The position numbers and the translations under genes were made by a program. A stretch of DNA of 64,000 bases, from NCBI RefSeq assembly GCF_032854445.1, contig NC_088306.1:16091764-16155763 (forward strand), written 5' to 3'. This document shows, in pieces, positions 1,263 to 49,600 of the stretch. The notes below the pieces were generated by a model that did not search any database, was not told where the DNA came from, and worked only from the letters and a program-made list of their open reading frames with translations. Position 1 is the first letter of the stretch. The number at the start of each line of letters is the position of its first letter. The DNA is from Liolophura sinensis. Its lineage: Eukaryota > Mollusca > Polyplacophora > Chitonida > Chitonidae.

Positions 1263-1317
1263 GTACAAATTCAGTGATTTACAGCACCAAATGAGCAATG
1301 TACCCTGTTTTGGGTGT

Positions 1318-11021: not shown

Positions 11022-11069
<48 letters not shown>

Positions 11070-15851: not shown

Positions 15852-15898
<47 letters not shown>

Positions 15899-25521: not shown

Positions 25522-25660
25522 ACACTGCGGATGGTCGTTGGTTTGTCCTAGGCTCGGCCAGATTTCCTCTCGCCGTAAAGCTGGCCGCTGTCGTACAAGT
25601 AAAATATTCTTGAGTACGCTGTAAAACACCAATCAAATAAATAAATAAACAAATAAATAT
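25522..25660 (+). mobile_element. SINE-A, 3' half
   Basis: CACTGCGGATGGTCGTTGG to the (AAAT)n tail, in gene B intron 1. Confidence 0.86.
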
Positions 25661-26930: not shown

Positions 26931-28710
26931 CATGTAAACACACCAGGACATATTGTATAAATGAATCTAAAAGGAAGTGAGCATGTCAATTCCAAATCCA
27001 CAATATACTGAGAGAAGAATTTAGTGTACGTAGTTTTGCGTATCGAATGGCAAATTTAGTAAACTGAGGGAAACAAAAATCAAGAATCAATAAGATGTAT
27101 GCATTGATGTATATCATCGATAGGAAATATGCCTGTTTACTTAATTTGCAAACTCATCTCTTTGTGCTAGCTCTTCTCTTCATCTTTGGGATTGGAGATA
27201 TTTTCCACGAGAGGGCGCTGGTCGCCGCTTCCGCTTTTCTGACTTTCCTGGGATTTTTAGTTACATTCTTCAGCACAAGAATTGAACACGTCTGTGTGCA
27301 GGGAGTTTGTACAGGTATGTATCATTTACAATAATAAAACTTACTTTCTTTGTCATTTATTTTCTCCCTAACCAAGGAGAAATTTTTAAAACATAGAATG
27401 AATGTTTAATTCACATTGACCAGTTATAGAGCCAAATGCTTTTTGAGAGCGCCTACAGCATAATATCACAATGAAGTTATAAAGCAAAGCTGGTAGCTGT
27501 GACAGGGCCTTTTTTACCCCGGTGTGTTCCACCGACAATCCAGGAAAGTATGTTCGATGTGATGCCCAATACGGCATCAAACATACCCTACATTTCTGAT
27601 TTCTAATGTTGTCATTAAATATTTGAGGTCTGTTAGCCTATAGTGAAATATATAGTTCTTTATTATATATACATTCATAAACACTCTCCTAGTTAATATA
27701 TTCTAAACATATTCTGGCTTTCGAGGTTTAACGAGGGTTTGGTTCTTCAACTGCTTTTGAGCAAGTCCGTCTTCATTGTTTTATTTTGAATGTTCTCATC
27801 ATATCGAAAGCCAGTCACTCGTTTTTGTTTCAAACGCTCTATTAAGAAACGGTAGCCGCTGTTGTGGTTGTTGTAAAGAGAATAACCCTTTACTAAATTC
27901 GTCGGGGAGATATGAATTGTCCAGTCAGGCATACATTGGGCCATGTCGCCATACTTAAAGAACCACAACTGAAACATAGCCTCCGTGCTTTCTGCGCATT
28001 TCGTATGCCCACTCCATCCCACCGCTAAACACAGAAATCATTTATTGTGTAACACCAAGTCCTGGACCAGGAATTTACAGTTACTCGACCCTTCTCCACA
28101 CCTGAACGGCTTTCCATCATTTCGTCCAAAGTGTTTGTTTAATTATGATTCCACAATTTTAATTGTGTCACACAGGAGCAGCAATACAGATCGGAATGAC
28201 ATGTGGCATGAGCTTGGTGGGCCGGTATTTTGATAAACGTCTGAGTGTGGCAAACGGAATTGTCATGAGTGGTAGCAGTTTAGGTGTCTTGGTGTCTCCA
28301 CCTGTGGTCCAATGGTTGCTGAACGAATATTCCTACAGAGGAACTGCTTTGATTTGCGCCGGCTTGACCCTGAATTCACTGGCGTGTTCTTCTTTAATGA
28401 TGCCAGTCCCTAGAATAGTGAAATCAGAAATCGTTCCGGTACAACAAGACAGTTCACGTATCATGTCGGCGACTGGATGTTCTGAGAGCCAAGATCAGAG
28501 TGCAGAGAATAATCCAACAAAATATATCATTGTCCCAGAAGTTCCACCTCGTTTGGGTGCGGACAAAAATACCGCCATCAAAGATTTTTCAAACGTCACG
28601 TATTTTGTCCCCGAACCTGACATGGAAGTAGTTGATATTTCATCAACAGCTAACACAGCAGATGATCGACGATCTGCACGTTGTTTCGAAACTGTGAGGC
28701 TAGCAATAAA

Positions 28711-28723
28711 ACAATTCTCCTGA
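28711..28723 (+). other. Frameshift point in gene B exon 4
   Basis: Paralogs read TTT TCC CTC AAA GAC here (A) or the equivalent QFSLKDT (C, E). Gene B reads TTC TCC TGA AAG, that is, one C of a short C run is missing. Frame arithmetic agrees: exon 4 is 1064 nt, where 1065 would keep phase 1 at the donor. Confidence 0.8.
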
Positions 28724-29409
28724 AAGACAACAGAGACAGACCTGCGAATGCGTCTGTTTGGAGGTCAATGTTACCAAGCGTTTCTCTACTCAAAAATCCC
28801 CCATTTCCGTTTCTACAAATGTTTATGTTTTTCTCTACTGCGGGCAGCGAATGCGTGATTCAATACTATCCGGCTTCCACCAGGGAATTGGGGATGTCAG
28901 AATACCAGTCCGCCTTTCTATTGTCTATTGCTGGAGTTGGTGATCTCCTAAGCCGTGTTGGGTTAGGTTTCTTGGGTGATTACAACTTCATGGCACGCTA
29001 CAAACTCGTCATGATTCCACAGTTTGTTCTCGGCACGATTTGTTTCCTCTCCCGATTCGCCACAGAATTCTGGTCGCAGGCTATCTTCGCGGTCATCATT
29101 GGTCTGACTGTTGGTACCAGTACTGCCTATAGAGGTGTGGTACTTATCGACTTCTTTGGTCTAAAAGATTTTGGCCGATTACTGGGCATGAGTAGTTTTG
29201 TATCCAGCATTGGCGCTGCATCTGGGAGTCAGCTAATAGGTAGGTATTTGAGTTATTAAGACACCTACAGCGTCTGATTTCATAAACATTTTAAACATTT
29301 TTCTCTCTCAACTAATCTTGTTCGTGACAGAAAGGATGAGATAATGTGCCGTTGTAAAAAGGGGAGTCTGTTTAGGGGTTACTTACAGTTGCGCTAGAAA
29401 ACGACTTCA

Positions 29410-29830
29410 TGTAGCACGGCGATAGATTACTCTGGCCTCCAGATGTCCTATTTAGTGACTTCTGCACGATGATAGTTTACTCTCACCTACAGGTGTCCTA
29501 TATGTTGACTTAGGCATGGTGATAGTTTGCTCTGGCCTACAGGTGTCCCATATGGTGATTTCGACACGGCGATACAGTACTCTGGGCCGCAGATGTCCTA
29601 TATGGTGACTTCGTCACGGTGATAGATTACTCTGACCTACAGGTGTCCAATACGCTGACTTCGGCCACATCATAGATTACTCTGACCTATAGGCGTCCTA
29701 TATGGTGACTTCGGCATGTGATAGATTACTCTGACCTACAGGTGTCCTACATGGTAACCTTGACACGGCGATAGATAATTCTCAGTTATGAAAATTTTGC
29801 CATGCTGATGGATTACGTTTACCTACAGAT
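29410..29830. repeat. 50-bp minisatellite in gene B intron 4, about 8 copies
   Basis: The unit includes GATAGATTACTCTGACCTAC, AGGTGTCCTATATGGTGACT and TCGGCACGGC. It starts about 170 bp after the exon 4 donor. Coding-strand sequence matches the arrays in introns 4 of genes C and D. Confidence 0.88.
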
Positions 29831-30049
29831 GCCCAATACCCTCACTTCAGCACGGAGAAAATGATGCTTTCTGCGTACTTGATATGTCTGTAATGGGTAA
29901 ATTACATGATCGGTTATGTGGATAAAGGTGTTTCTGAGAAGTTTGATTATTTTTTGGTAATACGTCATGTCTCAAACTTTGTTGATCATTTCGTTGCTAC
30001 TTTTTAACCATTTACACGGAGTGTTAAGCTCTAACTGGGGCAAATAAAG

Positions 30050-30300
30050 GAGGCCAGATTTTAACTATAACGTGTAAACATTTGCCAAATATCACTATCC
30101 TCGCTATTTCTCTTTACGCTGTAGTCTTTCATACTCTATTCTTGCATAAACCAGAATTCTACTGACTGACTGAGCATCACAGAGGCATGGCCCATGTGCA
30201 TTATCTTCATTTCACTGTTTTTAGAGTTTTCAAATGTGATGACACATAATTTAAGTAATTCAAGACCAGTGACATCTATTAAATTGCATTAATAATACCG
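30050..30300 (+). repeat. Interspersed repeat R4, copy in gene B intron 4
   Basis: TTTACGCTGTAGTCTTTCAT, CATAAACCAGAATTCTACTG and AAGACCAGTGACATCTATT match the other R4 copies. Confidence 0.6.
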
Positions 30301-30634
30301 TACCTTTAAAAACTAATTTTACTGAAGCCGATTCCAGCTATCATATTATCGCTGCTGTTCTAGATTTGATCTCTATACTGAAGTATTTCATATTTTGTTT
30401 TAGGATACTTGCGAGATGTGACTGGAGAGTACGAAGTGCCATTTCAAATAACAGGATCATTTCTGTTCGCGGCAGGTTTGAGTTTACTATTGGCTGGGGC
30501 GTGCAGATGGTGTCAGAAACGAAAGCGAGGCCAACATTATGTGAACTAGGTCACACGTCCCTCCCCATTCTTTAACCTAATGGTGGACGGCACTGGATCT
30601 GTATGAGGGATCCACTTTCATGAAGTCCTTGTAT

Positions 30635-30782
30635 CAAATGTTTAACTGTTTCTAATGTTTAACTGTTTCTAATGTTTAACTGTATGTAATGTTTAAGTGT
30701 ATGTAATGTTTAACTGTATCTAATGATTAACTGTATCTAATGTTCAATTGTATCTAATATTTGATTGTATCTAATGATTCGA
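30635..30782. repeat. 17-bp tandem repeat, about 8 copies, 3' of gene B
   Basis: Unit TGTTTAACTGTATCTAA, lying about 90 bp after the stop and therefore probably in the 3' UTR. Confidence 0.85.
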
Positions 30783-31054
30783 TATACACGATATACACTT
30801 AACGCATTTCAAGTCGCTTGATAAAAAAACCCTGATTTCTTCATCTGTAGTTCATTCTTTAGTTTTCTTTTTTTAACCCTTTATACTTGTTGTGACATGG
30901 TAGAGATGGGCTTATTTAAGATGTAAAGAGGGTCAATTTTACGAACGTGTCACTATTTGATAAGTGATCTTCTCCTTATGTCGACACTTGTACATGTACG
31001 TATACATATTTCCAGCTTCCGGTTGTGTAACTGGGCCCCGGTTTGTCCATATTC

Positions 31055-31405
31055 CCATATAAACCAGGATTCTGCTGGTGGACTAAGCATCCCCGAGGTC
31101 TGGTCCCTTTGCATTGTTTTAATGTGATTGTATGTTAAATGTGATGCCAACACAGCATTTTGAGTAATTTTAGACCAGTGATGTCTGATAAACTGCAATT
31201 AACATCACTGCATTTTTTTTACCTAATTCTGCTCAAACCTTGATACTATGGGGCGGGTAAATTGCAACTATTTATGTATTTACATGAACATCCCTGACTG
31301 AGGTAAATTGACCAGAGGCCGTATTTCATTTCATTACATGTGACCACATGCCAGATATCATACTGTCCTTGCTGCCCTGGTTTTACTCTTTATGCTGTAG
31401 AGTAA
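31055..31405 (+). repeat. Interspersed repeat R4
   Basis: CATATAAACCAGGATTCTGC, CCCGAGGTCTGGTCCC, TTAACATCACTGCATTTTTT and GGTTTTACTCTTTATGCTGT are in the same order as in the dimer at 33655-34305. Confidence 0.65.
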
Positions 31406-32267
31406 TTTATGTAGTAAATTATGTAGCTATTTATGTAGTAAATTTGTCAAGTTCAACCTCAAAAATATATATGCCCTAACTTTCGCGTGGTACAATGCCA
31501 TATCACCACATACAGCTTGCACTTTTCAGTAATATCTTAACATGATGCTGGCACTATAACCCAAATATTACAAAGCTCAGCGCAGAAGTGAAAATTCAAG
31601 AGCTGTTAAGAACTGCTAACCCTTTCCCCATTAGTACCTGCAGACACCACTTGTTCCAGAAAGTGACATTTTTTTATTATTGCTCACAGGAAGCAGATTT
31701 AACCAAATTTTATGAAACATAAGAAGCAGATCAACTTTCAGACCTATTTTAAAACACACCGATGGTATATTTACTGTTTTTTAAAATCACTTTGCATGTA
31801 ACAAAATGGCAATGCACAATTCTATAGTAAGTCTCATATGTAAATATTTTAAAATAATAGGATAAAATAACTTTCTAAACCTATCTATACACATTCTAAA
31901 ACAGTTCTGGTCGAATAAATGCAATCTTACGATCTTACTAGTTGAAAATTTAAGCATTATAAGTGCAAAGTTGGAATTTTGCAGGAAAAAGGCGGGGTGA
32001 ACTTTTAGGGGGGAGGGGTGATGACTGAAGATCAGCCATGGCAAATACACATAAAGTAGTCCGTGGTCATTTTAAAACAATTACAACTTGACCTGATCAA
32101 AAGAAAGGTGATCAGGTAAAACTGGGCCTCTCTCCTGTAGGTTACGTTGAATCGTCATATTTATGTATTATATTCTTCAACTTCAACCTCAAAAATATAT
32201 TTGCCTTTCTCGTGGTACAATGTCTTACCACCACATGCAGTTTGCACATTTCTTTACCACATATCAG
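31406..32267. other. Intergenic stretch, no gene seen
   Basis: AT-rich sequence; a short AACCTCAAAAATATAT phrase recurs at 31454 and 32185, each followed by CGTGGTACAATG, so a small local duplication is present. Confidence 0.45.
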
Positions 32268-32408
32268 TCTGGCACCAACCTGCGGATGGTCGTGGGTTTC
32301 CCCCGTGCTCTGCCCGGTTTCCACCCACCATAATGCTTGCCGCCGTCGTATAAGTGAAATATTCCTGAGTACGGTGTAAAACACCAATCAAATAAATCAA
32401 ATAAATAC
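32268..32408 (+). mobile_element. SINE-A, 3' half
   Basis: CCAACCTGCGGATGGTCGTG to CCAATCAAATAAATCAAAT. Confidence 0.86.
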
Positions 32409-33059
32409 CGCATATCAAAAAAATCAACCTAGCATGACCACCATTTTTTGAGCTGTGGTTGATGGAAGTGAAGTCATAGCATTTTGTTACCATGGTACCT
32501 CCAAGTGGGAGGAAGTAACACTGGAAAAAAGGTTTTCAATTCTATCAAGAACAAACTAAATTCGGACATATTTTGACTGTGTACAAATTAAAAGTGCAGA
32601 AATATTATAGTGCATCAACAACCTAAAATGTCTGTATGGCAGCATTACCCAATCAGTGCCCCTTCACTCTTCAGTTCGGAGGCAAATTTTGCACCCATTT
32701 GCCTGAATTGGGCAACCTGTAGCCTTTAATTATATACAGTGTATCATTAAACCTATCGAGCAACAGAATAGCCCAATCTGAGGTCAGTCGTTTATAGGTT
32801 GTAGTGTCGTGCTCTCTTAAGATATCTGTGTATGTCTTCTGTACAACACATGTGGAGGGCGCTACCTGTTGAAGGTGTCACAAAACATTTTTCTAGACCT
32901 GTAGGTTTTGTGTACACACCAAGCAGGCTTTAAACCTGAGACAAAATCCTTTGGGTTTTTTTTTCCATTCTTGACACTGCAGTTCGAAGGGTCCTCAGTA
33001 ATACACCCGGTAAGAGTCAAGTCGATTAGATATAAACGGTCACAGATTCCCGAACTTTT

Positions 33060-33265
33060 ATTTAGATATTTATTTTATTGCCGTTAAACGTCTTCCTCAA
33101 GAATTTTTTGGGGGTACACTGGTGTAAAATGGTTGGAAGAGGTGTGACATGTAAACTTTTTTCCATCCTCCCATGAGGAGATTTGGCCATCTGTTGACAT
33201 GTTAATAATGGAGCCTGAATGAAACGTCCTGCAGAAGACACCAAAAACGACACCCCATCCACCGT
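33060..33265 (-). mobile_element. Diverged SINE-like sequence
   Basis: TTTATTTAGATATTTATTTT then GCCGTTAAACGTCTTCCTCA resembles a SINE 3' end read in reverse; the far end (GAAGACACCAAAAACGACAC) resembles SINE-C. Identity is low. Confidence 0.4.
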
Positions 33266-33654
33266 AATAGTAGGCCTATATCATCCGCCCTGAAAGTATA
33301 GTGCGGTTTAGTTTAGCTGGCCCCAACACAGACGCCTGTTGTTGAACCGCAAGCCGTCTACTCCACATACGTCGACATAGGGCACGCATTCGTTATTACT
33401 TTTACATACACAGACAAGTTCTCTGTCAGGCTCTGTCTGTTTTTGTTTTGTTTTTTTGTTTTTTTTTTGTTGTTGTTGTTTTTTCTTTGTTTTTTGCCGC
33501 TCTTGTATTAGTAAAATATTCTTATGTACCTTTGAACATCAATGAAATAACGAAAGACATAAATCATACATGCTTGGACACACATTCATACATATGCATG
33601 CACGTGACCTTGAATGAAAGATTCTCCCGGGCTTTGCCTGGTTTCCCCAAGTAT

Positions 33655-34305
33655 AATATAATTAAAGACATACAGCATAAAGAGTAAAACCAGAGCAGCG
33701 ACGGCAGTGTGATAGCTGGCAAATGGTCACACTAAACCAATGAAATACGCCCTCTTGTCGTGTTATCTCAGTCAAGGTTTTTTCTAACTGTTAATGTAAA
33801 TGCATAAATACTAGCAATTTACACGCTCCTTAGCACCATGGCTTAAGCAGCATTAGGTAAAAATGCAGTTATGTTTATTGCAATTTATTAGACGTCACTG
33901 GTGGAGAATTACACAAAATGCTGTATTGTCATCACATTTAATATACAATCCCACTAAAACAATGCAAAGGGGCCAGACCTCGGGGATGCTTTGTTCACCA
34001 GCAGAATCCTGGTTTATGCAGGAATACAGTATAGTTAAAGACGTACAGCATAGTGAGTGAAACCAGAGCAGCGACGACAGTGTAATAACTGGAAAATGGT
34101 CACATGTAACCGGTGAAATACGGCGTCTTGACAATTTATCTCAGTCAGGAATTTATTCTAACTGTTCATGTAAATGCATAAATACTAGCAATTAACACGC
34201 CACCTAGCACCACGGCTTAAGCAGAATTAGGCGAAAAAACATCTGCATTGATGTTAATTGCAATTTATTAAACGTCACGGGTCTAGAATTACTCAATTGT
34301 AAAGC
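33655..34305 (-). repeat. Interspersed repeat R4, tandem dimer
   Basis: Two copies about 360 bp apart share AAAGAC(A/G)TACAGCATA, GTAAAACCAGAGCAGCGACG-like, AAATGGTCACA, AAATGCATAAATACTAGCAA and TTGCAATTTATTA. It shows that R4 can occur in tandem, like a satellite-derived or LTR-like unit. Confidence 0.7.
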
Positions 34306-34689
34306 AACACCAATCACCTAGGTTTTTTTACCAGGCCTGATTAACGTGACCTGAGTCAGTTGTCCACGGAGATACGATACTCATCTGTGCCCTTCTGTAT
34401 CCTACCTTGAAGCTGTTTCCCCTGGTTTCCCTGAAATCCGTGATCCGTATCTACCTCCTTGTACCCGCTAGATTTACTGGGCTTGATGGATATTTGCCAC
34501 ACTTTGGGCAAGCCGCTGTGCCAACTCATTAATTTTATCCCGCAAAGATATAATCAGCCTGAATCACAAAGTTTTCATACATTTAAGTCAGACCTTATTG
34601 TAGTTCGTGGTATTCATTCTGAATTTATATATTAAAACATGCGAAACCTATGTACTAACATCGTCACGATTTGAATAATGATTTCTCCC

Positions 34690-35109
34690 ATTCACCTAGA
34701 GTGTACCTTGCGTCTTTCCAACATCACTGAAAACTGTTAAGTGCTTCTCTTTGCATGATTCCACCCTAATTCCATGCCTATATACTTTTCTAATGGTTTG
34801 TATTAAACATTCTTTTGGGAATTGGCTTTGCGATTTACCTGGAACGTCTATCGTGGTTGACGGCTAGTATACGAATGTCTGTTTCGACGCATAGTTTTGT
34901 ATACAAGCCATCGACCAATATAGACGTTCCAGGTCAATAATCACAAGGCCAAATCCCAAAACAATGTTTAACGCAAACTACCAAAGAACTAACAAAGCAT
35001 ATATAAATAAACGTACGATAATAAGAATGAATCACGCAAAGAGAAGCAGTCAACAGTTTTCAGTGATGTTGGAAAGACGCATGCAAGGAATGTTCTAGGC
35101 GAATGACTG
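34690..35109. mobile_element. Fold-back element FB2, about 420 bp, near-complete palindrome
   Basis: Inverted arms of about 200 bp: CATTCACCTAGAGTGTACCT, ATCACTGAAAACTGTTAAGT, GGCTTTGCGATT, GGAACGTCTAT at the left are mirrored by ATAGACGTTCC, AATAATCACAAGGCC, CAACAGTTTTCAGTGAT and CCTAGGC-like GTTCTAGGCGAATG at the right. No ORF. Half copies occur at 57650, 61738 and 63705. Confidence 0.8.
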
Positions 35110-35814
35110 AAATCAGCATCCATATCGCGTACCGTGGTAATATTGTCGATATTCAAACAATGTGTACCATTTGCATCTTGATTGCAATGTGGCGATCTAA
35201 TTCTACGTGATTAAGACACGGTTCCTAGCCCCGGAATTAAACACAAGTATGAGTCACTGCCAGAGATTCTGGACGATTCTGGAGATTTATACTCATCGTA
35301 AAGCTCATGACACTTTAGAGTGAAAGCGTGTGACGGAATAACGTTGACACATCATCAGGGGTTAACGCAACAGGAAGTTAAAATTCACATTCACAGTCAC
35401 CGAAAAATGATTGCAGGATTTGCCCGATGTAAGAACAATTTTTTAGGATGAATCATGAATCTTTCCCCTTATGGACGTCAACGGGCAAGTTGAACACGTT
35501 TTACTTTTCAATCCTTCAATTTCACCTTCACTCAGTTACTGACCTTGACACTTAAGGCGTGATATCAACAGCCATTTGTGGACTTTGGGCTACAAATAAG
35601 TATCTCTTTTGCCTTAAGCAGAAATAACCACAACAGAATGATAAAGACAAAATACGTTTATATTCACGCATAGTTTCTTTGTTGAGTTACAGGTTTTTTC
35701 TCCCTTTGATGGTAAATGTTGTTGGTAATGGTTTTGCTGAACGTCTTCTTTGCTTGATCGTTGTTAGACGAATGTCTACCGCAACACTTAATTAGCTTAC
35801 ACCCAAATCAGTGG
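35110..35814. other. Intergenic stretch, no gene seen
   Basis: Unique-looking sequence without supported features. Confidence 0.45.
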
Positions 35815-36090
35815 CATACCGCCGTGTTGAAGACACCAAACATGACACCCCAACCCGTGATAGTATGCTGAAGACACCAAACATGGCCACCCAACCGGTG
35901 GCAGTATGTTTGAGTCTGTTGACCCCCTCATATTATTTATAAAACCATGCTGAAGACACCAAACATGACACCCCAACCCGTGGCAGTATGTTTGTCTCTG
36001 TTGACCCCCTAAGATTTTGTAACACCATGCTGAAGACACCAAACATGACACCCCAACCGCTGGCAGTATGCTTGCGTGTACTGGTCATGT
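35815..36090. repeat. 41/81-bp tandem repeat, four partial copies
   Basis: TGAAGACACCAAACATGACA plus CCCCAACC(C/G) recurs at about 35826, 35867, 35948 and 36029. The phrase resembles part of SINE-C (42100), so a SINE piece may have been amplified in tandem. Confidence 0.8.
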
Positions 36091-36288
36091 CTAATGTTTG
36101 CAACGCCCTGCACAACTACTTGCATTGGACTTACCTGGGCTGATCACGTCTTAATGTTCTCCAATTCTTGCGTCCACTGATTTTGGGGGCGTGAAGATGA
36201 TAAGCTGTTGACAGCACGTACTATAAGAGCTCTCCAGGTGATCGAGAGCAACATAGCATTAACAGAATATTGTTTTCCTCTTTGACTG

Positions 36289-37850
36289 ATATAAACTGAC
36301 GGACAAAAGATACAAAGAATTCAAATCAATTTATTTTGTCAAAGCAAAAATCAGGATGACTGAAGTTGAGCATATTGAAAAGACCAATGACTTTAGATAT
36401 TGAAATTCTTGAGTAAGAACGGACAAAGAGGCCTCAAAACATTTTACAAGTGAACAAACAGAGTAGGGGTAGAAAAATAGCCATTCCATCTTGGTTAACA
36501 AGGCGCAGAGTATACAAAAAGTTGATATATTTTTAAAATCAGTCAATATTAAAACCAATTAATATCGCGTGTGGCCACCCCTTGCTTCAATGCAGGCAAA
36601 AACTCTTCGACGCCTACAAAAAGTCAGTCGTCCGATGAGATGACGTGGGATTAGTTGCCACTCATTTTGGAGAGCGAACGCCAGTTCTTGTCGGTTGGCT
36701 GTAAGGTGTGACTGTTGTCTTACTAGACGACCCGTGATATCCCAAAGGTGTTCTATGGGGGACATATCTGGGGAACGTGCAGGCCATGACAAGACCTTGA
36801 CGTATTTGGCGCGTCCATGAAGTTCTGCACAACTCGAGCTGTATGAGGTCTGGCGTTGTCATGCTAATACAGGACACCACGTGGATGCTGTTGAAGGAAT
36901 GACAGGACAACAGGACGTAAAATTTCATCCACGTAACGTTGAGCTCTTAAGTTCCCGTAAATGATGACCAGTGGTATCTGCTCCTCTCCACAAATAACAA
37001 CCCACACACCTTCACGCTGCGGCCACCAAACGGTACCACCTCATGGACACATGATGCAGCCGTTCGCCTCTTCGACGGTAAACTCGCTGTCTGCCATCGG
37101 CTTTGAACAGGCAGAAGTGGCTTTCATCCGTGAAAACAATAGGTTGCCAATCACGTCGCAGCTAACGGCGTACAATTCGAGCCCATCGCAACCTCTGGCG
37201 ACGATGTTCGGCTGTCAACAACTGCCCTCTGAATGGTCGATAGGCCCTAATTCCGGGAGCCATGAGTCTCCTGGACACGGTCTGCCGACTGACTCGGTGA
37301 CCTAAGGCATTGATTAAGGATGACGTCACTGTCAGGAGGCGGTTCCTCAGGTGTAAGGTTCGAAGGTACTAGACTTCTCTGGGCGTAGTTACATTAGGCC
37401 TGCCTGTTCTTGGCCTGTCCGATGTCTGCCCTGTCTGTCGGTAACGTTGTATCAAGTTTGACACAGTTACACGAGAGCAGCCGAAGGTCCTTGCAAGGTG
37501 GGCATGATTGGCTCCCATCAATACCATACTCAGGGGCCCTCTCGCGTTGTTCTGGAGTCAATCGAGGCATTACTTTGGTGGTTTTTAGTCAGTGTGCGAG
37601 TCCAACACATTGTGTGTAACGTTTTTATACACCTATTACATGTGCAGTTGCGGACATCCATGGATCACGTGATTTTTCAACTTTCTTCGTTGTCTCAAAA
37701 CAAATTCGTGTAAGCGTATTTGACGCTTGTCGCATATGGGAATATGCTTCGTACAGAGTTTTCCTACAATAATTTGGTACTAATTTGCTGCAACTTTGGT
37801 TAAATTTAACTCACAGAGTCGTAAGGTTTCTTTTGGCCGTCAGTTTATAT
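36289..37850 (-). mobile_element. Tc1-like DNA transposon, decayed, with terminal inverted repeats
   Basis: About 1.56 kb bounded by 25-bp inverted ends (ATATAAACTGACGGACAAAA at the left, the complement of ATATAAACTGACGGCCAAAA at the right; two mismatches), next to TA as expected for Tc1/mariner insertion. Confidence 0.85.
36559..37570 (-). pseudogene. Tc1-type transposase remnant
   Basis: The minus strand starts MPRLTPEQRE (ATG at 37568-37570), a Tc1-typical N-terminus, and continues with QTGQTSDRPRTGRP-like helix-turn-helix sequence. The catalytic domain shows HDNARPHTARVVQNF (second Asp) and WPARSPDMSPIEHLWD (third acidic residue), ending EARGGHTRY at a TAA. The pieces lie in different frames, for example near 36820, so no intact transposase is encoded. 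Confidence 0.85.
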
Positions 37851-38489
37851 ATATGTGCATGTACAGACTAAAAAAAGCAAATGAGCCTTCTCAATTTTCT
37901 GCACATTTGTGAAAGCTGGTTTCCCCACATCATTTCCCCACATCAGAAAATCTTACTCAAGTTTTAAAACTTTGGTTTTCATTGACGGGGCATGTGTACA
38001 AACGTAAAAGAGATAATGCCATCTTTACATGTCTATTCATTGCGTATAACATTTCGTCTTGCATAAATATATCTATTGCAACTCTTGTTGGCCTCGTTTT
38101 CGTTCCTGGCGCCATTTGCAAGTTCCAGCCAATAATATACTCAAGCCGGCAGCGAACAGCACTGCTCCTATTGTTTGAAAAGGCACTTCATAGTCTCCAG
38201 TTAGGTCTCGCAAGCACCCTGTAAACAAAGAAATCTTACGTGAATTATATATTGTACAGCAACTCATAGATCTCGTATTTTGTGACACCAGGTATTAAAC
38301 TGTTCAGGTGACACCAACCATAAATTAAACCGTGTCAAGACTTTTATTATTCAAATATCTTATATAACAGGGGACATGGCCACGTTCAATTAATAAAGTA
38401 CAACACCATGAAGAAAAAAACGAAAGAAACTATATCTGGTCTACCGGACACAGTAGTCGCGAGTTGTCAGTATGTCACGCAAAGTAATA

Positions 38490-40190
38490 TATTACAGTAC
38501 CTGAGTCAGCTTATAGGGCACCTGTAGGTCGAAGCACTTTATCACCGTGCCTGAGTCAGCTTATAGGGCACATGTAGGTCAGAGCAGTCTATCACCATGC
38601 CTAAGTCGGCTTATAGGGCACCTGTAGGTCAAAGAAGTCTACCAGCTTGCTTAATTCAGTTTATTGGGCACCTGTAGGTCAGAGCAGTCTGTCACCGTGC
38701 CTGAGTCAGTTTACAGGGCACCTGTAGGTCAGAGCAGTTTATCACTATGCCTAAGTGCCCTGTAGGTCAGAGCAGTATATCATCGTGCCTGAGTCGGCTT
38801 TTAGGGCACCTGTAGGTCAAAGGAGTCTACCAGCGTGCTTAAGTCAGTTTATTAGGCACATGTAGGTCAGAGCAGTCTATCACCGTGCCTGAGTCGGCTT
38901 ATAGGGCACCTGTAGGTCAGAGCAGTCTATCACCGGGCCTAAGTCAGCTTTTAGGGCACATGTAGGTCAAAGCAGTCTGTCACCGTACCTGAGTCAGCTT
39001 ACAGGGACATGTAGGTCAGAGCAGTCTATCACCGTGCCTGAGTCAGCTTATAGGGCATCTGTAGGTCAAAGCAGTCTATCACCGTGCCTGAGTCAGCTTA
39101 TAGGACATATGTATGTCAGAGCAGTCTATCACCGTGCCTAAGCCAGCTTATGGGGCACCTGTAGATCAGAGAAGTCTATCACCGTGCCTAAGTGACCTTA
39201 TAGGGCACCAGAAGGTCAGAGCAGTCTTTCACCGTGCCTAAGTCAGCTTATAGGGCACCTGTAGATCAAAGGAGCCTATCACCGTGCCAAAGTCAGCTCT
39301 TAGGGTACCTGTAGGTCAGAACAGTCTATCACCGTGCCTGAGTCAGCTTATGGGGCACATGTAGGTCGAAGCACTTTATCACCGTGCCTAAGTCGGCTTA
39401 TAGGGCACATGTAGGTCAAAGCAGTCTATCACCGTGCCTTAGTCAGCTCTTAGGGCACCTGTAGGTCAAAGCAGTCTATCACCGTGCCTAAGTCAGCCTT
39501 TAGGGCACCTGTAGGTCAAAGCAGTCTATCACCGTGCCTAAGTCAGCTCTTAGGGCACCTGTAGGTCAAAGCAGTCTATCCCGTGCCTAAGTCAGCTTAT
39601 AGGGTACCTGTAGGTCAGAGAAGTCTATCACCGTGCCTTAGTCAGCTCTTAGGGCACCTGTCGGTGAAAGCAGTCTATCAACGTGCCTTAGTCAGCTCTT
39701 AGGGCACCTGTAGGTCAGAGCAGTCTATCACCGTGCCTAAGTCGGCTTATAGGGCACCTGTAGGTCAAAGCAGTCTATCACCGTGCCTGAGTCAGCTTAT
39801 AGGGTACATGTAGGTCAAAGCAGTCTATCACCGTGCCTAAACCAACTTATAGGGCACCTGTAGGACAGAGGAGTCTATCACCGTGCCTGAGTCGGCTTAT
39901 GGGGCACCTGTAGATCAGAGCAGTCTATCACCGTGCCTAAGTGACCTTATAGGGCACCTGTAGGTTAAAGCAGTCTGTCATCGTGCCTAAGTGACCTTTT
40001 AGGGCACCTGTAGGCCAGAGCAGTCTATCACCGTGCCTGAGTCGGCTTATGGGGCACCTATAGATTAGAGCAGTCTATCACCGTGCCTAAGTCACCTTAT
40101 AGGGCACCTGTAGGTTAAAGCAGTCTGTCATCGTGCCCAAGTGACCTTATAGGGCACCTGTAGGTCAGAGCAATCTATCACCGTGCCGAA
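38490..40190. repeat. 50-bp minisatellite in gene C intron 4, about 34 copies
   Basis: Plus-strand unit AGTCAGCTTATAGGGCACCT followed by GTAGGTCAGAGCAGTCTATC and ACCGTGCCTA. Read on gene C's coding strand it aligns with the gene B array over the whole 50 bp (about 80-85% by eye). It begins about 240 bp after the exon 4 donor. Confidence 0.93.
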
Positions 40191-41224
40191 TTCTGCATGC
40201 AGAACACCTTTTGGTCTGCGTAATCTACTAAGGTGCTGATGTCATCATATGTCATCATGCTGTGTGCTTTATGTCATCTTATTATATTATCATCATCATA
40301 AGGTCGTCATGTTATATATTATATCCCTGCCAACGTTAGTAAACACTGAAAAACACGACAAAGTTGATTTACAACATTTTTGGCGAAATCAGACCTTGTA
40401 GATGTACGTTTACTTTGAACACAAATGCTTACCTATTAGCGGGCTTCCAGAGGCAAGACTAAAACTGCAAACCAGGTTACTAATACCTAGTAATCTGTTT
40501 AAATCCCCCAGGCCAAAGAAGTCAATCAGAACTACCGCCTTGTAAGCAGTGCTGGTACCATAAGTAAGGCCAATAACGACTGCGATGATAGCCTGCGACC
40601 AGAATTCTGTGGCGAATCTAGAAAGGAAGCAAGTCGTGCCCAGAATAAACTGTGGAATCATGACGAGTTTGTAGCGTGCCATGAAGCTGTAGTCACCGAA
40701 CAAGCCTAACCCAATTCGGCTTAGCAAATCCCCAACTCCAGCCATGGACAATAGAAAGGCGGACTGGTATTCTGACATCCCCAGTTCCCTGGTGGAAGCC
40801 GGATAGTATTGCACCACGCATTCGCTGCCCACACATGAGAAAAACATGAAAAGTTGAAAAAAATGCAAAACGGGATTTTTCAGCAGAGACACCCTGGGTA
40901 GCACAGTTCTCCAAACAGGCGCAATCACATGCCTATCACTGGTGTCTTTCAGAGAGAATTGTCTTATTGCTACCCTCACAGTTTCGAAACAACGTGCAAA
41001 TCGTCGATCATCTGCTGTGTTAGCTGTTGTTGAAGTATCAACCACTTTTATGTCTGGGTCTGATATAAACTCTTCCATTTCACAGTCATCTATGGCATTT
41101 GAATAATCCGTAATAGCATTATTTTTGGCTGCATCCCGACGAAGTGGAACTTTTGAGACAGGGACTTTGTTGTTTCGTCTTAGATTTATTTCCGCAGTTT
41201 TATCTCGGTTCTCTGAACACCCAG

Positions 41225-41262
41225 TCGACGAGATGATACGAGATGATACCCAGGGGAACCAT
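41225..41262 (-). other. Frameshift region in gene C exon 4
   Basis: On the coding strand a 10-mer (TATCATCTCG) is directly duplicated, and the interval between GTTCC and CGTATCAT is 14 nt, against 19 nt in gene B. The net change of -5 breaks the frame between helix 6 and helix 7. Removing a GT...AG stretch of 37 nt here would also restore frame, but that is shorter than credible animal introns. Confidence 0.65.
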
Positions 41263-41590
41263 TTCTGATTTAAGGGTTCTAGGGGCTGGCCTCATTAGAG
41301 AACAACACACCAATGAATTCAAAGTGAAGCCGGCACATATCAAAGCAGTTCCTCTATAGGTATATACATCGAGCAGCCATTGAATGACAGGAGGGGACAA
41401 CAGTGCCCCCAAACTTCTACCACTCATGACAATTCCGTTTGCCACACTGAGTCGTTTATCAAAATACCGACCGACCAAGCTCATTCCACACGTCATTCCG
41501 ATCTGAGTTGCAGCTCCTGTGTGGCAAAATTATTATTAATGGGATTATTATCGAACATGATGGAAAGTCACCCATCCAAATTAAGATGAC

Positions 41591-41945
41591 CGGTCCTGAT
41601 AGCTCATTTGATAGAACGTCCACTTCGGCTACAGTAGATCCAGGGCCAATCCTGGGTCGGGTCACACATTAAGACCTTAAAAGAGGAGTTGTAGCTTCCT
41701 GGCTTGGTGTTCAGCATTAATGGGTAGTGCGACGACTGGTTGACCCATATCAATATAATGGCTCGGGTGAGGCGCCTTACTTGCCTTCGGTAAGTCGCTT
41801 CAGTGAAGCAGCACTAGATAAAAGAGCGGTGGAAATCCGTCCTGTAACAAGGAGGCACATTACATGCACTCTAAGCACGCCTTCGTGGTCATATGACGGG
41901 AAAATTGTTAAGTACAACGTTAAATTCCAAGCACCCACTCACTCC
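41591..41945 (+). mobile_element. SINE-B, near full length
   Basis: Head ATAGCTCATTTGATAGAACG and GGGCCAATCCTGGGTCGG; body TTGGTGTTCAGCATTAATGG; tail ATATGACGGGAAAATTGTT. It sits in gene C intron 3, opposite to the gene. Confidence 0.87.
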
Positions 41946-41969
41946 AAGTTGAGAATAAATGAATGAATG

Positions 41970-42205
41970 CTTGGGGTTTAACGTTGTTTAAATTTTTCAG
42001 TCGTATGACAACGAGGAATCATTAGGTGTGTGTACATATGATGTGTCTTCTTGTGGCAGGGCGATTCCATGACGCCAAAGAGCTGCCGCGCCTGAAGTAT
42101 CTTGCCGAAGACATCAGACATGACACTCCACCCAGTCACATTATGCTGACACCGGGCCATGTTTCCTTGCTCTAACCTCTGAGTGCTGAGCGCCAAGCGA
42201 GGACC
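41970..42205 (-). mobile_element. SINE-C, partial
   Basis: Starts at its 3' end (GCTTGGGGTTTAACGTTG), then TCTTCTTGTGGCAGGGCG, ATGACACTCCACCC and CTGAGCGCCAAGCGAGGA. A SINE-A-like end (CTATAATGCTGGCTGCACT) follows, so it may be a chimera. Confidence 0.6.
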
Positions 42206-42873
42206 GGTTCCGCCTACTATAATGCTGGCTGCACTACTCAAATAAATTAATAAATCCTTGATAACATATCAAGGTATAATGCTTGTCACCTTGAAGAGTA
42301 GCTTTGCACGTCCAGACTGCTTTGCACATCCAGACCCTGTGAACTGTCCGGACTGTGAATGTTGCCCTGTGGTCATGATTTTTGGTATAACACACCGGAG
42401 TAAACCATAGTTCTGGATCCGGTTAGTTTTCTAATTTTACGGTATTATGTTTTTATACTGTACAAACATTTTGGCTTCACATTTGGCAAAATTGTTGTAA
42501 AGATTCTTTTTTTAATTTATTTTTAGTCACTTGTTCTTCAATAGGAAGAAAATAAAGGACAGCAAAAAGTAAGTTTTACAGTTTTAAATGGTTCATACCT
42601 GTACAAACTCCCTGCACACAGACGTGTTCAATTCTAGTGCTGAAGAATGTCAATAAAAATCCAAGGAAAGCCAGAAAAGCGGAAGCGGCGACCAGCGCCC
42701 TCTCGTGGACAATGTCTCCAACCCCAAAGATGAAGAGGATAGCTAGCAAGAGGAAATACGAATTGAGTTTCTAGATGAAGGAAGTATGTATATTTTCTGT
42801 CTATGATACACACCAATGGCATAACGTTATGGTTCTTGTTTCTCGCGTTCCTTTTTGTTTTTAGTGAAATATT

Positions 42874-42930
42874 GATTGATTGATTGATTCATTCATTCAT
42901 TCATTCATCCATTCAGTTATTCATTTATTT
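42874..42930. repeat. Short tetranucleotide repeats
   Basis: (GATT)n passing into (CATT)n and (TTTA)n in gene C intron 2. Confidence 0.8.
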
Positions 42931-43351
42931 ATTTAGTTAACTTAGATGACGGTGGTCAGATCTACTGGTGGATCATCTGTTGACGAATTTGTAATTGCCA
43001 TGATCTCTTCCTTCTAGAGTCACACATACATATAAACATGTTTGTATTTGCATTTGTCATTTTCTTTCTTTCATGCAGTTTACAGGCGTGTGCGTATTTT
43101 TACTGAATTCCAACACATCTTTCTTTTTCTTAAGCAGCACATACATGAGTGTGTATGCTAGACATTTTACATTGATACAGATATATGTATTTGTATTTGC
43201 TTTATGTGTATTTTTATTCGATGTTTTCCCTTATTTAACAAAGACATGTTAGTATTTCATGTAAGGTTTTGGACAGATTTATATGTGTATTTGTATTTGG
43301 TATGTTCTGTACTTAAGCTGTAGACACAATTCTGTATTTCTTTTTCATTAG

Positions 43352-43465
43352 CAAGTCTCTCAGCAGGCCGTGGATGGTCGCGGGTTTCCCCCTGGCTCTG
43401 CACGGTTTCCTCCCAGCATAATGCTGGCCGTAGTCGTGTAGTGTATTCTTGAGTACGGCATTTGA
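43352..43465 (+). mobile_element. SINE-A fragment
   Basis: CAGCAGGCCGTGGATGGTCG to TATTCTTGAGTACGGCA; interrupts the start of the intron 2 minisatellite zone. Confidence 0.8.
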
Positions 43466-43477
43466 CACTCTAGCTGT

Positions 43478-44224
43478 ACACAGACATATCTGTATTTTCC
43501 ACTCTGGTTGCAGATAGATATGTCTGTATTTTACCCTCTATCTTAACATAGACAAATCTGCATTTTTGACTCTCTAGCTGTATAAAGACCTATCTACATT
43601 TGACTCCCTAGCTGTACATAGACATGTCTTTCCTTTCATACTCTGGCTTTCAGACATATCTGTATTTTAGCCCCTGGCTGGACGTATTCATTTCTGTATT
43701 TTACACCCTGGCTGTTGGACACTCTACATGTACATAGGCATGTCTGTATTGAACACTCTAGCAGTACATAGGCATATCTGTATTTTACTCCCGTGCTGTA
43801 CATAGTCGTTTCTGTATTTTACTCTCTAGCTATTCATAGACATATCTGTATTTTACTTCCTGGCTGTACATAGACACATCTGTATTACTCTCTAGATCTA
43901 CATAGACATATATGTATTTGACTCTTTAGCTGTACATAAACATGTCTGTATTTGACTCCCTGACTGTATATAGACATATCTGCATTTAACTCGCTGGCTA
44001 CATATAGATATAGCTGTATTTGACTCCCTAGCTGTACATAGTCATTTCTGTATTTTACCCTCTAGCTGTACATAGACATATCTGTGTTTGACTCCTTAGC
44101 TGTACATAGACATGTCTGTATTTTACTCTCCAGGTGTACATAGTCTTATCTTTTGTACTTGACCCTCTAGTAACTCTACATAGACGTATGTTGGATTCGA
44201 ATCTTCAGCTGTACATAGACTCAC
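43478..44224. repeat. 34-bp minisatellite in gene C intron 2, about 22 copies
   Basis: Plus-strand unit AGCTGTACATAGACATATCT then GTATTTGACTCCCT. Its complement matches the gene B array and runs directly into gene C's exon 2 donor (GTGAGTCTATGTACAGCT). Confidence 0.9.
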
Positions 44225-44863
44225 ATGTTGCAGAAAATCCTATTGCGATAGAGCTAAAGATGAGCGACGCCTTAGCCGTCGAGGCCTCGTATATGTCAAT
44301 CAACTCCACGACCGTGATGCTTAGACTTCGATAAAAGCTCACCAGCAGGAAAACGTTCACCATAGATGCTGGGAACAATGAAGTGAAATTGGAACAAAAA
44401 CAGCTTAAAGCAGTAGATCGAGGTTGTAAAGTACTGAATATCTCGAATCAACGAGCCGGAGTTGGAAGGCCTACATTGGACATGTTGGAGGTGTGATGGC
44501 AAGCACCACCTCTTATTTTAACGACATATCTTTATGATGGTTTAGCTGTTGAAATCGGTGGGGGTAGCTTGGTAGATAAGGTGACTTTAATTAATATGAG
44601 GTGGCTTTAATTAATATAATATAAAAATATATAAAATAGATAAGGTGACTTTAATTATTATAAAACTTTGCAGAAAGTTCAATAGGCACTAACAAAACTG
44701 CGAAAGTAAAGCTATTAATCTTACCAACAGCCACAACCCAGGCCCACCCCGTGTCGGGAGAAAAGGCATCACGGTGCGGATCGCTCTCCTCTGTCTTTTG
44801 TCCACCTGTGAGATTACGAATGGTATCGTATGTACTGGACGTTTTTGACATTTTTGAGGACAT

Positions 44864-44985
44864 TGGGTCTAAATCAGTGAATCCAATCGATTCGAAATGA
44901 ACGCTGGTAAATCCTGATTGGCAGTGTTCAGCTACGCTGCCTCAAACATATCCTTAATTCATTGTCACGCAGTAAACACGTGAGG
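44864..44985 (-). promoter_or_regulatory. Conserved upstream block of gene C
   Basis: The minus strand carries GCGTGACAATGAATTAAGG (44952-44970), then a copy of the CAGGATTTACCAGCGTTCA block and CACTGATTTAGAC just before the ATG, in the same order as in gene B. A palindromic CACGTG E-box (44977-44982) with flank GAGG also occurs upstream of gene D. Confidence 0.4.
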
Positions 44986-45560
44986 TCATTAAATCCCTCC
45001 ATGGTATATAACTTTACTGACAGTCGTTGTATTCTGTGATAAGATTAGTTTACACTCTTAAAACTCAAATGGCATATATACCTTCACTAATGAAAAACTC
45101 AACATTAGGTCAGCCGCGCAGGATGGAAGAAATTACAATGTGCTAGATTACGTCGCGCCTTCAATAAAAGAATCAAAATGTTTTAATCTTATACTGTCTT
45201 AATATCAAAATTAACACTTTCAGATGATTTGTTCCGCGTCTGCATGATGCCATTTCAATATTTGCCGAAGATGAGAAATGTGGAAACAATAGGTATATTA
45301 AAAAAACCTGTAGTAAAATATCTGGCTTCAAAGTGTAAAGATTTTGGCACGTTTATAGTATTACATAATATGAACCCTCCAAAAATGCTGACATTGCATC
45401 ATCTGCGTTTTAAGAGTGTGTATTCTGAGTTTAAAGCATCACGTGATCACGACTTTTTGTCATGTTGTAGATATGTGTCAGTTTAACGTGTCCTATTTCT
45501 CATTTCGGTGCGATTTCCATATTGAGAAGTAGCAGCTGTCCTCAAATGTCAAGTGTTGCC

Positions 45561-45825
45561 AGGGATCTCCGTGGCTGAGTTGGTTAGCGCGCTAGCGCAG
45601 TATAATGACCCAGGAACCTCTCACCAATGCGGTCGCTGTGAGTTCAAGTCCATCTCATGCTGACTTCCTCTGGCCGTACGTGGGAAGGTCTTTCAGCAAC
45701 CTGCGGATGGTGGTGGGTTTCCCCGGGCTCTGCCCTGTTTTCTCCCACCATAATGCTAGCCACAGTCTTATAAGTGAAATATTCTTGAGTATGCCGTAAA
45801 ACACTAATCAAATGAAAAAATAAAA
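45561..45825 (+). mobile_element. SINE-A, full length
   Basis: Head CTCCGTGGCTGAGTTGGTTA (A-box) and GTGAGTTCAAGTCC (B-box); tail CACTAATCAAATGAAAAAAT. GTTGCC and GTTACC on the two sides may be a decayed target duplication. Confidence 0.9.
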
Positions 45826-46139
45826 TGTTACCATGAGACTTAAGATGTGTAAAGTTATATATTTGTTTTATGGTGCTGAATAAAATATTTCTGCATAAAT
45901 ACTTTGATATCTTTAATAGCCAATAAATTTTTACTCTCGCCTGTTCAGAGTAGTATTTGCGCTCCTTCTCCGATTTGTTAAGGTTCACCTTTTACTCCAA
46001 TACACAGGCCCGGTCAGTGTAAAACTTTTTTTCTCAGCAGAATGGCTCGTACGAAAAGGTTTAATTAAAACCGTTGGGATGTAATTTAATTCCGATCTTT
46101 TCGTGGAATTAATCTACAGCAGAATTAATCTCCAGTACA

Positions 46140-46325
46140 CGTGCCCAATCTATCGGCCCAATCTGATGAATCAATTTACCGGCCCAACAAGCCGGCCCTA
46201 CCAATCGACCCAGCCTACCGGCGTAACATGCCAGTCCATTCTGCCGGCCTAACTAACGGCGGTCCAATCTACCAGCCCTATCTACCGGTCAAATCAGCTG
46301 GTCAAATCTACCGGCCTAATCTGCA
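46140..46325. repeat. Degenerate short tandem repeat, about 12 bp
   Basis: Variants of CTACCGGCCCAAT recur about 14 times, between genes C and D. Confidence 0.75.
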
Positions 46326-46644
46326 ATTTCAACAAAACGTGGATACATAAGTTTCGACGTAACATTTAATCACTGTAAAAATACTAACTTATACATTTTC
46401 TAGTAATTACAAGAACTCAGTCAATACATTGATGATGGGGAAAGTATTCAACATCAACATCGTCGGTTTCAATTAAAAGCCGCTTTTCACAAGGAACAAC
46501 TCACAACATCGTTCATTTTTTTTATCTTTTGAGTCATAGTCCGCTTTGTGGAAGTTTTCATTAACGACGAATGCTTAAAAACTTAGAAAAGATCACGGTT
46601 TGTTCATTAAATTCCATATAACATGTCTTCTTGCACACATATAT

Positions 46645-49600
46645 CTATTCAAAGTCATGTTGGCCTCGTTTTCGTCTGTGACGCCAACTGCACGCGCCAG
46701 CCACCAGTATACTCAAACCAGCAGCGAACAGCACTGCTCCTATTGTTTGCATAGGCACTTCATAGTTCCCAGTTAAGTCTCGCAAGTATCCTGAAAAAAA
46801 AAAAACAATACTTCATGAATATATACAGCTAATAACAGGCAGCAACTCTCCTTTTTGAAACACAAGCTATTAATCAAACTGTTCAAGTAACACCAAGAAT
46901 AAACCAAGCCGTGTCAAAAACACACGCACTGAAAACTATGAGTGGTGTCTGCAGCATACACTTGTATCTTTAACCCATTTACTTCCATCTGTTGATGTTG
47001 ATAGCTTATCAACGTACCGTCAGTTTTTAACTAAATGGGTTTATCGAGAAAATCTTATATTTTCTATTTACTTGCTATTGTGGATCTTTAACATGCCTTA
47101 GTATTCAATTCATAAAGCAGAGGTATAAACCCATACAGGTACTTTTTTCAATCTCAGATATCATGCGGCTCATACACAAAGTTTACAATTTAGGTCACTT
47201 TTAGACCAAAATAACTTATCGCTATGCCGAAGTCACCATATAGGTTAAAATAATCTATCACAATGCTGAAGTCACTATATCGGACACCTGTAGGTCAGAG
47301 TAATCCAACACGGGCCTGAAGCTACCATCTACAGAGTAAGGGTCAGAGTAATCACCGTGCTGAAGTCACCATATAGGACACCTGTCGGTTAGAGTGATTT
47401 ATCACTGCGCTGAAGTCATCACACAACACATCTGTAGGTCAGAGTAATCTATCGTCGTGCTGAAGTCACCATATAGGACACCTGTCGGTCAGAGTGATTT
47501 ATCACTGTGCTGAAGTCATCACATAACACACCTGTACATCAGAGTAATCTATCACCGTGCTGAAGTCACCATATAGGACACCTGTCGGTCAGAGTGATTT
47601 ATCACTGTGCTGAAGTCATCACATAACACACCTATAAGTCAGAGTAATTTGACACGTCCCTTGGCGATCACATTCTATAGTCTGTTATATTTCACAGAGC
47701 TTTGCCTATGGTTTTTGTAGCTTCCAGATAACCCTATTGTATTCTATACCGAGTTAAATAAGTAAAATCGATACGCAAAACTTTATCAAATCACACCGTT
47801 CTTTTCTTAGTTATGACACATCTACCTACCTATGAGCGGGCTCACGGCAACAAATCCAAGGCCGGACACAAAATTACTCATACCCAGTAATCTGTTTAAT
47901 TCCTGAAGACCAAAGAAGTCGATTAGTATCACAGCTCTGTAGGCGTAACCTGTACCATAAGTCAGACCAATGATGACCGCGAAGATACCCTGCGACCAGA
48001 ATTCTGTGGCGAATCTAGAAAGGAAGCAGGAAGTGCCCAGAATAAACTGTGGAATCATGACGAGTTTGTAGCGTGCTATGAAGTTGTAATCACCTAACAA
48101 GCCTAACCCAACACGGCTTAGCAAATCCCCAACTCCGGCCATGGACAATAGAAAGGCGGACTGGTATTCTGACATCCCCAGTTCTCTGGTAAAGGCGGGA
48201 TAAAATTGCACCACGCATTCGCTGCCAATAGTTTGGAAAAGCATGAACATTTGTAGAAACGGGAATGCCGGATGCTTCAGCAGAGGAAGACTCGGTAACA
48301 GTTTTCTCACACCAGACGCACTGACGGGTCTGTCTCTGGTGTCTTTCAGGAAAAATGTTTTGATGGCTAGTATGACAGATTCGAAACAACCTGCAGACTG
48401 CAGATCAATTCTTGTGTTGTCTTTCCTTGAAACTTGAGTTTCTTCCCTTTGTGGTTCAGAAACGAAGTCTACTATTTCAGTGACATAGGCAGCGTTTGAA
48501 TAACCGTTTGAGGCTATATTTGTGTCCGCCCTGCAATTATATGAAACATCTACGCCGGTGACAGTAGTAGCTTTAGAAAGATCGGTTTCTGCCGTTGTGT
48601 CTATGCCGTCAGTCACATCAGCAGCAGATGTAGTGTCTGAACCATTCTGGTGCGGCAGAACCATTTCTGTTTTAACAGTTCTAGGAACTGGCCTCATTAA
48701 ACCACAAAAGGCCAGAGAATTCAGAGTCAAGGCGGCGGAAATCAAAGCAGTGCCTCTGTAAGTATATTCGTCCAGCAGCCATTGTAGGACAGGGGGGAAC
48801 ACCAAAACACCCAAGCTAACACCACCCATGACGATCCCGCTGGCAACAGTCCGTCTTTTATCAAAGTACTGACCGATCAAACTAAAGCTACATCCCATCG
48901 CAATCTGCATGGCTGCTCCTGTGTGGTCAATCAGAACAATGTGCTTATTAATAAATGGAGACTTTGGACAACACGATGTAAAATCTCGCTTTTAAGTTAA
49001 TAAGGTCGCTTCCTTAGTAACATCTTCTAAAGTGCGTATTCTTCAAGTCGTTTCATTGAAGTAATGGCAATGGGACAATGGGTCTGTCAGCAACCTGCGG
49101 ATGGTCGTGGGTTTCCCAGCGCTCTGTCCGGTTTCCTCCCACCATAATGCTCGCCGCCGTCGTATAACTGAAATATTCTTGAGTACGACGTAAAACACCA
49201 ATCAAATAAATAAATAAATAAAATCAATGCCACAATGTGTGAAATAGGTCTACAGTATGTGTTGATTTGCATACATGCGTATATCATTACACTTACATGT
49301 ACAAAATCCCTGTTCGTAGGCGAGGACATGATGAACTCTTGGGCAAAACATGGAACAGTTTTAACTTTTCATTACCGTAAAGTAGATTTTTTACAGATGT
49401 CGTTACATTAACACAACCAATACGACACTCTTCACGATTGTCTCCCGTGGACTGTATACATACGTGTCTTATTGAACTTACCCATGCAAAATCCCTGCAC
49501 ATAGATGTGTTCAATCCTGGTGCTAAAGAATGCCACTAAACATCCACAGCACGTCAGGGAAGAGGAAGAGGCAATCAGCGCCCTCTCGTGAACAATGTCA

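Follow-up and report, generated by a model that had tools for sequence, protein, structure and literature searches.

A 50-bp minisatellite in intron 4 of three paralogs

When several tandem paralogs carry the same short repeat in the same intron, has the repeat been inherited with the gene, has it passed from one gene copy to another, or is it held in place by a function? The question is raised by a stretch of 64,000 bases from the mollusc Liolophura sinensis (C12:16091764-16155763, here called the window; the genome has 609 Mb in 632 contigs), which harbours a tandem cluster of MFS/SLC16-like genes, including five tandem SLC16/monocarboxylate-transporter-like genes, A to E. A first-pass annotation of this sequence had described the same 50-bp unit, in gene sense, in intron 4 of B, C and D, and proposed that it either predates the duplications and was kept, or spreads by conversion between paralogous introns, possibly with a splicing or regulatory role. 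The simplest reading, which we regard as fairly probable, is that the array was inherited from the ancestral gene, with local turnover, and was lost in A and E.

The description of the repeat was borne out by the alignment scores and consensus identities. Wrap-around alignment to the 50-bp unit, which also set the array limits given in Table 1, scored 498 in B, 1734 in C and 467 in D, more than 20 times the maxima of ten shuffles each (23, 22 and 20), and Tandem Repeats Finder (TRF) reported a period of 50 with 7.3, 34.0 and 8.1 copies, respectively. The consensus units are identical at 48/50 positions between B and D, 44/50 between B and C, and 42/50 between C and D. On sequence grounds the three arrays are one repeat family, far beyond chance. 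All lie in gene sense and start 175 (B), 183 (C) and 182 bp (D) after the exon-4 donor, the well-formed TRF part of the C array starting ~245 bp into the intron, so that the 170-240 bp first noted was right. Under uniform placement, the probability of three starts falling within 8 bp is 0.0004, and a single ancestral array is favoured by this shared position. The stretch between donor and array contains no match to the unit (p 0.25, 0.12 and 0.82), and an origin of the unit from that stretch was rejected.

Genes A and E appear to lack the unit, in line with what had been stated. Unit alignment on both strands of their introns 4 scored no better than shuffles, local alignment of the whole introns to the unit gave p = 0.88 (A) and p = 0.12 (E), and a hidden Markov model profile of the unit run across the window found nothing better than an E-value of 0.71 outside the arrays.

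Apparent confinement of the unit to the cluster

The first-pass annotation had also pointed out that a unit common at unrelated loci would be a generic interspersed satellite, and such a satellite, or a repeat borne by a mobile element, could have landed in these introns by chance in a genome where tandem arrays abound (13.8% of 140 kb sampled) and a window in which dispersed repeats are common. The genome search found otherwise. With a 28-base core and up to 3 mismatches allowed over the 609 Mb, 43/43 matches fell inside the B, C and D arrays, and the reversed pattern, used as the control, gave 0. DNA searches with a 201-base piece of the C array and a 300-base piece of the D array returned at least 12 and at least 11 matches, all in the same three arrays; these genome counts are lower bounds, notably for very diverged copies. 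Outside the window, over 8 kb on its upstream and 24 kb on its downstream side, the unit profile gave just two weak matches, with E-values of 0.06 and 0.15; exon 4 of gene G, a neighbouring paralog, contains both. On the core search, which covers copies within 3 mismatches, a generic satellite is rejected, and we consider one extremely improbable.

Common origins with other repeats of the cluster were tried and rejected. The 31-bp array in intron 4 of gene G has only ACAGGTG in common with the unit (p 0.08 and 0.07), and comparison gave p 0.79 and 0.24 for the respective intron-2 units of C and E, and p 0.78 for the 29-bp array that D carries in intron 2. The gene G array, just outside the window (L031:5186-6272, 1.1 kb), starts ~70 bp after its donor and has no demonstrable relation to the 50-bp unit; an origin of its unit from its own donor region was likewise rejected (p 0.15). 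The literature that we searched yielded no description of the intron-4 array.

Unit identity within and between the arrays

Unit identities were computed on the 47/54 copies with at most 3 gaps (B 7/8, C 34/37, D 6/9). The mean identity is 0.79 within B, 0.84 within C and 0.83 within D, and between arrays it is 0.775 (B-D), 0.726 (B-C) and 0.694 (C-D). In C the interior copies are alike and the outermost ones retain 0.64-0.67 of the consensus, and the D array has a two-unit (100-bp) period. From the sequences, we read the similarity within arrays, the decayed ends and the two-unit period as probable marks of local unequal exchange.

Recent exchange between the arrays is rejected by unit identities and shared-variant counts: identity between units of different arrays never goes beyond 0.84, and minor variants common to two arrays are not in excess (B-D 7 against 9.4 expected, B-C 17 against 17.4, C-D 15 against 17.2; 50/54 copies). 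A tree in which each of the three arrays is monophyletic is also not rejected (p-AU 0.35, approximately unbiased (AU) test).

Gene tree and exon exchange

For the gene tree, exons 2 and 3 were used together with the initial 650 bases of exon 4. In its unrooted form B and C are joined with a bootstrap of 100, and a split with equal support (100) separates A and D from the other three genes. When the neighbouring paralogs G and H serve as outgroup, the best topology is (A,D),(E,(B,C)); support is weak (53 and 57) for both groups on which the position of the root depends. Placing E outside is rejected by the AU test (0.011), whereas the Shimodaira-Hasegawa (SH, 0.17) and Kishino-Hasegawa (KH, 0.09) tests do not reject it, and three other arrangements are not rejected. 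With the array present in B, C and D, the best tree therefore implies either an ancestral gain with two losses, or a later transfer.

Exon 4 bears signs of exchange between the genes themselves. A and D share a 150-bp identical stretch containing 34 variable sites (p 0.0005; exon 4 is at 17311-18399 in A and at 47830-48918 in D), A and C a run of 19 sites (p 0.0005), and B and C one of 16 sites (p 0.02), whereas the other seven of the ten pairs tested gave p 0.07 to 0.65, with 0.46 for B-D (2000 permutations, smallest possible p 0.0005). The A-D stretch points to gene conversion between paralogs ~30 kb apart. In the exon 5 tree B groups with E (bootstrap 96), and in that of the last 170 bases of exon 4 it groups with C (96). 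Over 311 bp that take in the last part of intron 4 and exon 5, C can be aligned with D, an observation from alignment only.

Inheritance or exchange

Under the reading by inheritance, an ancestral SLC16-like gene would have acquired the minisatellite in its intron 4, in a single event, and would have passed it on to its copies as the cluster grew, as the shared position and unit suggest. Within each array, unequal exchange or slippage would then have added and removed units and made them more alike, which would account for the similarity within arrays, the decayed ends and the two-unit period of D, and the array would have vanished from A and E, remaining elsewhere probably a passive passenger. 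Exchange of segments between paralogs, as seen in the exons, may have touched the arrays in the past, though not recently. A parallel for inheritance is provided by the repeat family of intron 2 (see below), which is likewise common to B, C, E and, in decayed form, D.

Several results weigh against this reading. The best tree demands two separate losses of the array, and the tree that needs only one, with E outside, is the one rejected by AU and not by SH or KH. The intron-4 flanks align at merely 0.38-0.55 (raw alignment, without a shuffled baseline). Above all, the units are closer to each other than expected, when the expectation is taken as the divergence at fourfold-degenerate sites minus the depth within arrays. 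The Jukes-Cantor distances at these sites are 0.72 for B-D (54 sites), 0.49 for B-C (72) and 0.85 for C-D (51). For B-D, 2/50 differences are seen against ~18 expected (P 1e-7), for C-D 8 against ~21 (P 5e-5), and for B-C 6 against ~11 (P 0.05); when no more than 60% of the estimated divergence is assumed, these P values become 0.006, 0.11 and 0.96, respectively. B-D is the pair that really stands out, and since its units are far closer than the fourfold sites predict, plain inheritance at a neutral rate fails to explain this closeness. It could be due to exchange at an older date, to constraint, or to a divergence that is overestimated (54 fourfold sites, mosaic exons).

Alternatively, the array may have originated in one lineage (that of B and C, say) and been carried to others, such as D, when the genes were already separate, by ectopic exchange that perhaps involved no more than the repeats; arrays of different genes would then have kept their similarity as the flanks diverged. 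Such a transfer would explain why B and D share a 48/50 consensus in spite of being old paralogs, and why the array distance is smaller for B-D (2/50) than for B-C (6) and C-D (8) when the gene tree pairs B with C; it needs one gain and one transfer in place of one gain and two losses, and the cluster evidently swaps exon pieces (the A-D stretch and the A-C run in exon 4, B with E in exon 5). However, the flanks beside the arrays have no B-D similarity (0.46 before, 0.42 after), and therefore a normal conversion tract is not seen; shared variants are not in excess, near-identical units are absent across arrays, and the B-D run test in exon 4 is not significant. Moreover, three unrooted arrays cannot prove incongruence, as C may simply have evolved faster, and the shared start position requires either that the target gene already had an array or that the tract included the flanks. 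We think a transfer possible but rather unlikely. Of the two proposals made at first, that the array predates the duplications is favoured by the shared position (P 0.0004), and conversion between introns fails as a recent process in the arrays, although the exons do show conversion and the closeness of B and D leaves room for an older exchange.

A more speculative idea, to which we give still less credence, is that paralogous introns evolve in concert through their minisatellites alone: arrays at matching places would exchange units or recruit exchange, outlasting the drift of the surrounding intron and maybe driving the exon mosaics. If the excess similarity of B and D is real, exchange between genes through intronic repeats becomes testable. 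The locus also offers a clear case in which an intronic minisatellite can be placed in time against the duplications of its host gene, even though arrays of this kind turn over rapidly.

A role in splicing or regulation

Retention at a fixed place had suggested a splicing or regulatory role, and the unit could indeed be a functional element, acting in splicing or transcription and selected at a fixed distance from the donor. That distance is constant, the consensus is far better conserved than the intron flanks, and each consensus unit has an AG/GT core, with 4, 21 and 1 exact copies of CTACAGGT in the introns of B, C and D, which is weak evidence. Changes are also unevenly distributed along the unit, with p 0.0002 both for C and for the pool of all three arrays. 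This unevenness comes from C, however, and we attribute it to probable subfamilies of C copies: in B and D together the changes show no significant clustering (p 0.17; 88 changes, modest power), and their rate in run 17-32, which is invariant between the consensus units, is 0.109 against 0.127 elsewhere. A conserved core motif was rejected on the B and D result, as was a special RNA structure, the folding of three 150-nt pieces being ordinary (z 0.41, 1.36 and -0.50). In addition, the two genes in which the unit was not found, A and E, have intact frames, and the longest array lies in the frameshifted gene C, B being frameshifted as well. Splice-like and transcription-factor-like words were counted in the unit, and these counts give no test.

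Nor are tandem arrays commoner in gene spans than outside them. Counted at period 10 or more and score 100 or more, they cover 8905/64000 bases of the window, 4103/30922 within the A-E gene spans and 4802/33078 outside. In 14 ten-kb samples of the genome, taken at round coordinates on 13 contigs, the figure is 19320/140000 (75 to 4101 per sample). Arrays thus fill ~14% of the window and of the genome samples alike, and an intronic array is therefore nothing special here. With no protected core in B and D, ordinary folds, frameshifts in exon 4 of B and C, and a genome equally rich in arrays, the suggested role is unsupported and appears to us quite improbable; a conserved position does not by itself imply a function.

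Host genes and location of the repeats

The host genes are putative transporters of the MFS family with closest similarity to monocarboxylate transporters (MCTs). PF07690 (MFS_1) is above the cut-off in pieces of genes D and B and just below it in pieces of C and F. The top PDB sequence matches of gene D are MCT2 and MCT1, the best being to MCT2 (E 8e-14, best stretch residues 22-105). Exon models of A-E (Table 1) come from inspection of splice sites. Relative to the other four genes, exon 4 of B has a 1-bp deletion and exon 4 of C a 5-bp deletion; the two lie at different places, and therefore both frames break (assembly error is possible). Because of these different frameshifting deletions, B and C may be pseudogenes.

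Table 1. Genes, introns 4 and minisatellite arrays, in window coordinates
Feature	Position	Strand	Description
Gene A	10477..19487	+	five coding exons, frame intact; exon 4 = 17311-18399
Gene B	25058..30549	+	five coding exons; exon 4 = 28176-29239, frame broken
Gene C	38073..44851	-	five coding exons; exon 4 = 40433-41516, frame broken
Gene D	46645..51677	-	five coding exons, frame intact; MFS_1 domain; exon 4 = 47830-48918
Gene E	58576..63182	-	exons 2-5, frame intact across these; exon 1 not located
Intron 4 of A	18400..19341	+	942 bp; no trace of 50-bp unit found
Intron 4 of B	29240..30403	+	GTAGGT...TTTTAG
Intron 4 of C	38219..40432	-	GTAAGC...TTACAG
Intron 4 of D	46791..47829	-	GTAGGT...TTTCAG
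Intron 4 of E	58722..59588	-	867 bp; no trace of 50-bp unit found; dispersed repeat at ~58930-59202
B intron-4 array	29414..29782	+	50-bp minisatellite, 7.4 aligned copies; decayed copies on to ~29865 by eye
C intron-4 array	38480..40250	-	50-bp minisatellite, 35.4 copies; TRF core 38500-40187; homogenised interior, decayed ends
D intron-4 array	47234..47648	-	50-bp minisatellite, 8.3 copies; 100-bp (two-unit) higher-order period
B intron-2 34-bp array	26394..26499	+	same family as C intron 2, starts at exon-2 donor
B intron-2 53-bp array	26711..26867	+	related to E intron-2 unit
C intron-2 array	43718..44220	-	34-bp minisatellite, starts at exon-2 donor
E intron-2 array	62664..63016	-	49-bp minisatellite; first copy aligns across exon-2/intron-2 boundary

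A further MCT-like gene, F, lies at 54523-55587 on the + strand; only part of its exon 2 and the start of its exon 4 were seen, and it may be truncated or differently structured. The dispersed repeat in intron 4 of E, ~270 bp long and possibly a short interspersed element (SINE), also occurs at 1764-2035 and at ~20 other places in the window. Elsewhere in the assembly, COX1 is found seven times on contig C99, at a spacing of ~15.5 kb, with one more copy on C632, which looks like a concatenated mitochondrial genome. A family search also located, on contig C8, eight consecutive haemocyanin beta-sandwich domains of the molluscan type within ~11 kb, as expected of a mollusc.

Minisatellites of intron 2

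The intron-2 repeat family comprises the 34-bp units of B and C, the 49-53-bp units of E and B, and decayed copies in D, the C-E and B-E units being related (p 0.001 for each). In E the unit alignment covers seven exon bases and the donor (p 0.001); in C (p 0.001), in B (p 0.014) and in A (p 0.027, tested with the C unit) the match to the unit starts just within the intron. Across the genome, the 34-bp pattern was matched 10 times with no more than 3 mismatches, every time in intron 2 of B or C, against 0 for the control; a search with the E array matched only itself.

Comparison with known systems

Classical minisatellites are arrays of the variable-number tandem repeat (VNTR) type. The intron-4 arrays qualify as minisatellites in having head-to-tail units in the range of ~10-100 bp with variant copies, and in a unit that is local rather than dispersed genome-wide. 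They have in common with the classical type a 50-bp unit in 7 to 35 head-to-tail copies, local homogenisation, decayed ends and, in D, a higher-order period; they differ in that one array is common to three paralogs at a single site, and they are known from one assembly. As to their hosts, the MFS_1 domain and the MCT2 match are shared with the SLC16 monocarboxylate transporters, and the host genes here form a tandem cluster of paralogs.

PMC2812944 describes internal tandem repeats of human genes in segmental duplications, in which copy number varies between duplicated genes. Unit size and this variation are similar to those of our arrays, but the human repeats, as presented there, are exonic or lie at exon-intron boundaries of recent paralogs and alter transcripts, whereas the intron-4 arrays are inside an intron of old paralogs.

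In amphioxus, according to PMC3087553, so-called mirages are minisatellite-like repeats at splice junctions with AG/GT in many units. The AG/GT of the intron-4 consensus units is similar, which is weak evidence; in contrast to the mirages as described there, the intron-4 arrays belong to a mollusc, have no unit spanning an exon-intron boundary and start 175-183 bp inside the intron. The intron-2 arrays, which start at or across the exon-2 donor, look like such boundary-associated repeats and are a candidate case. Their donor-proximal position suggests that mirage-like boundary minisatellites may also occur in molluscs.

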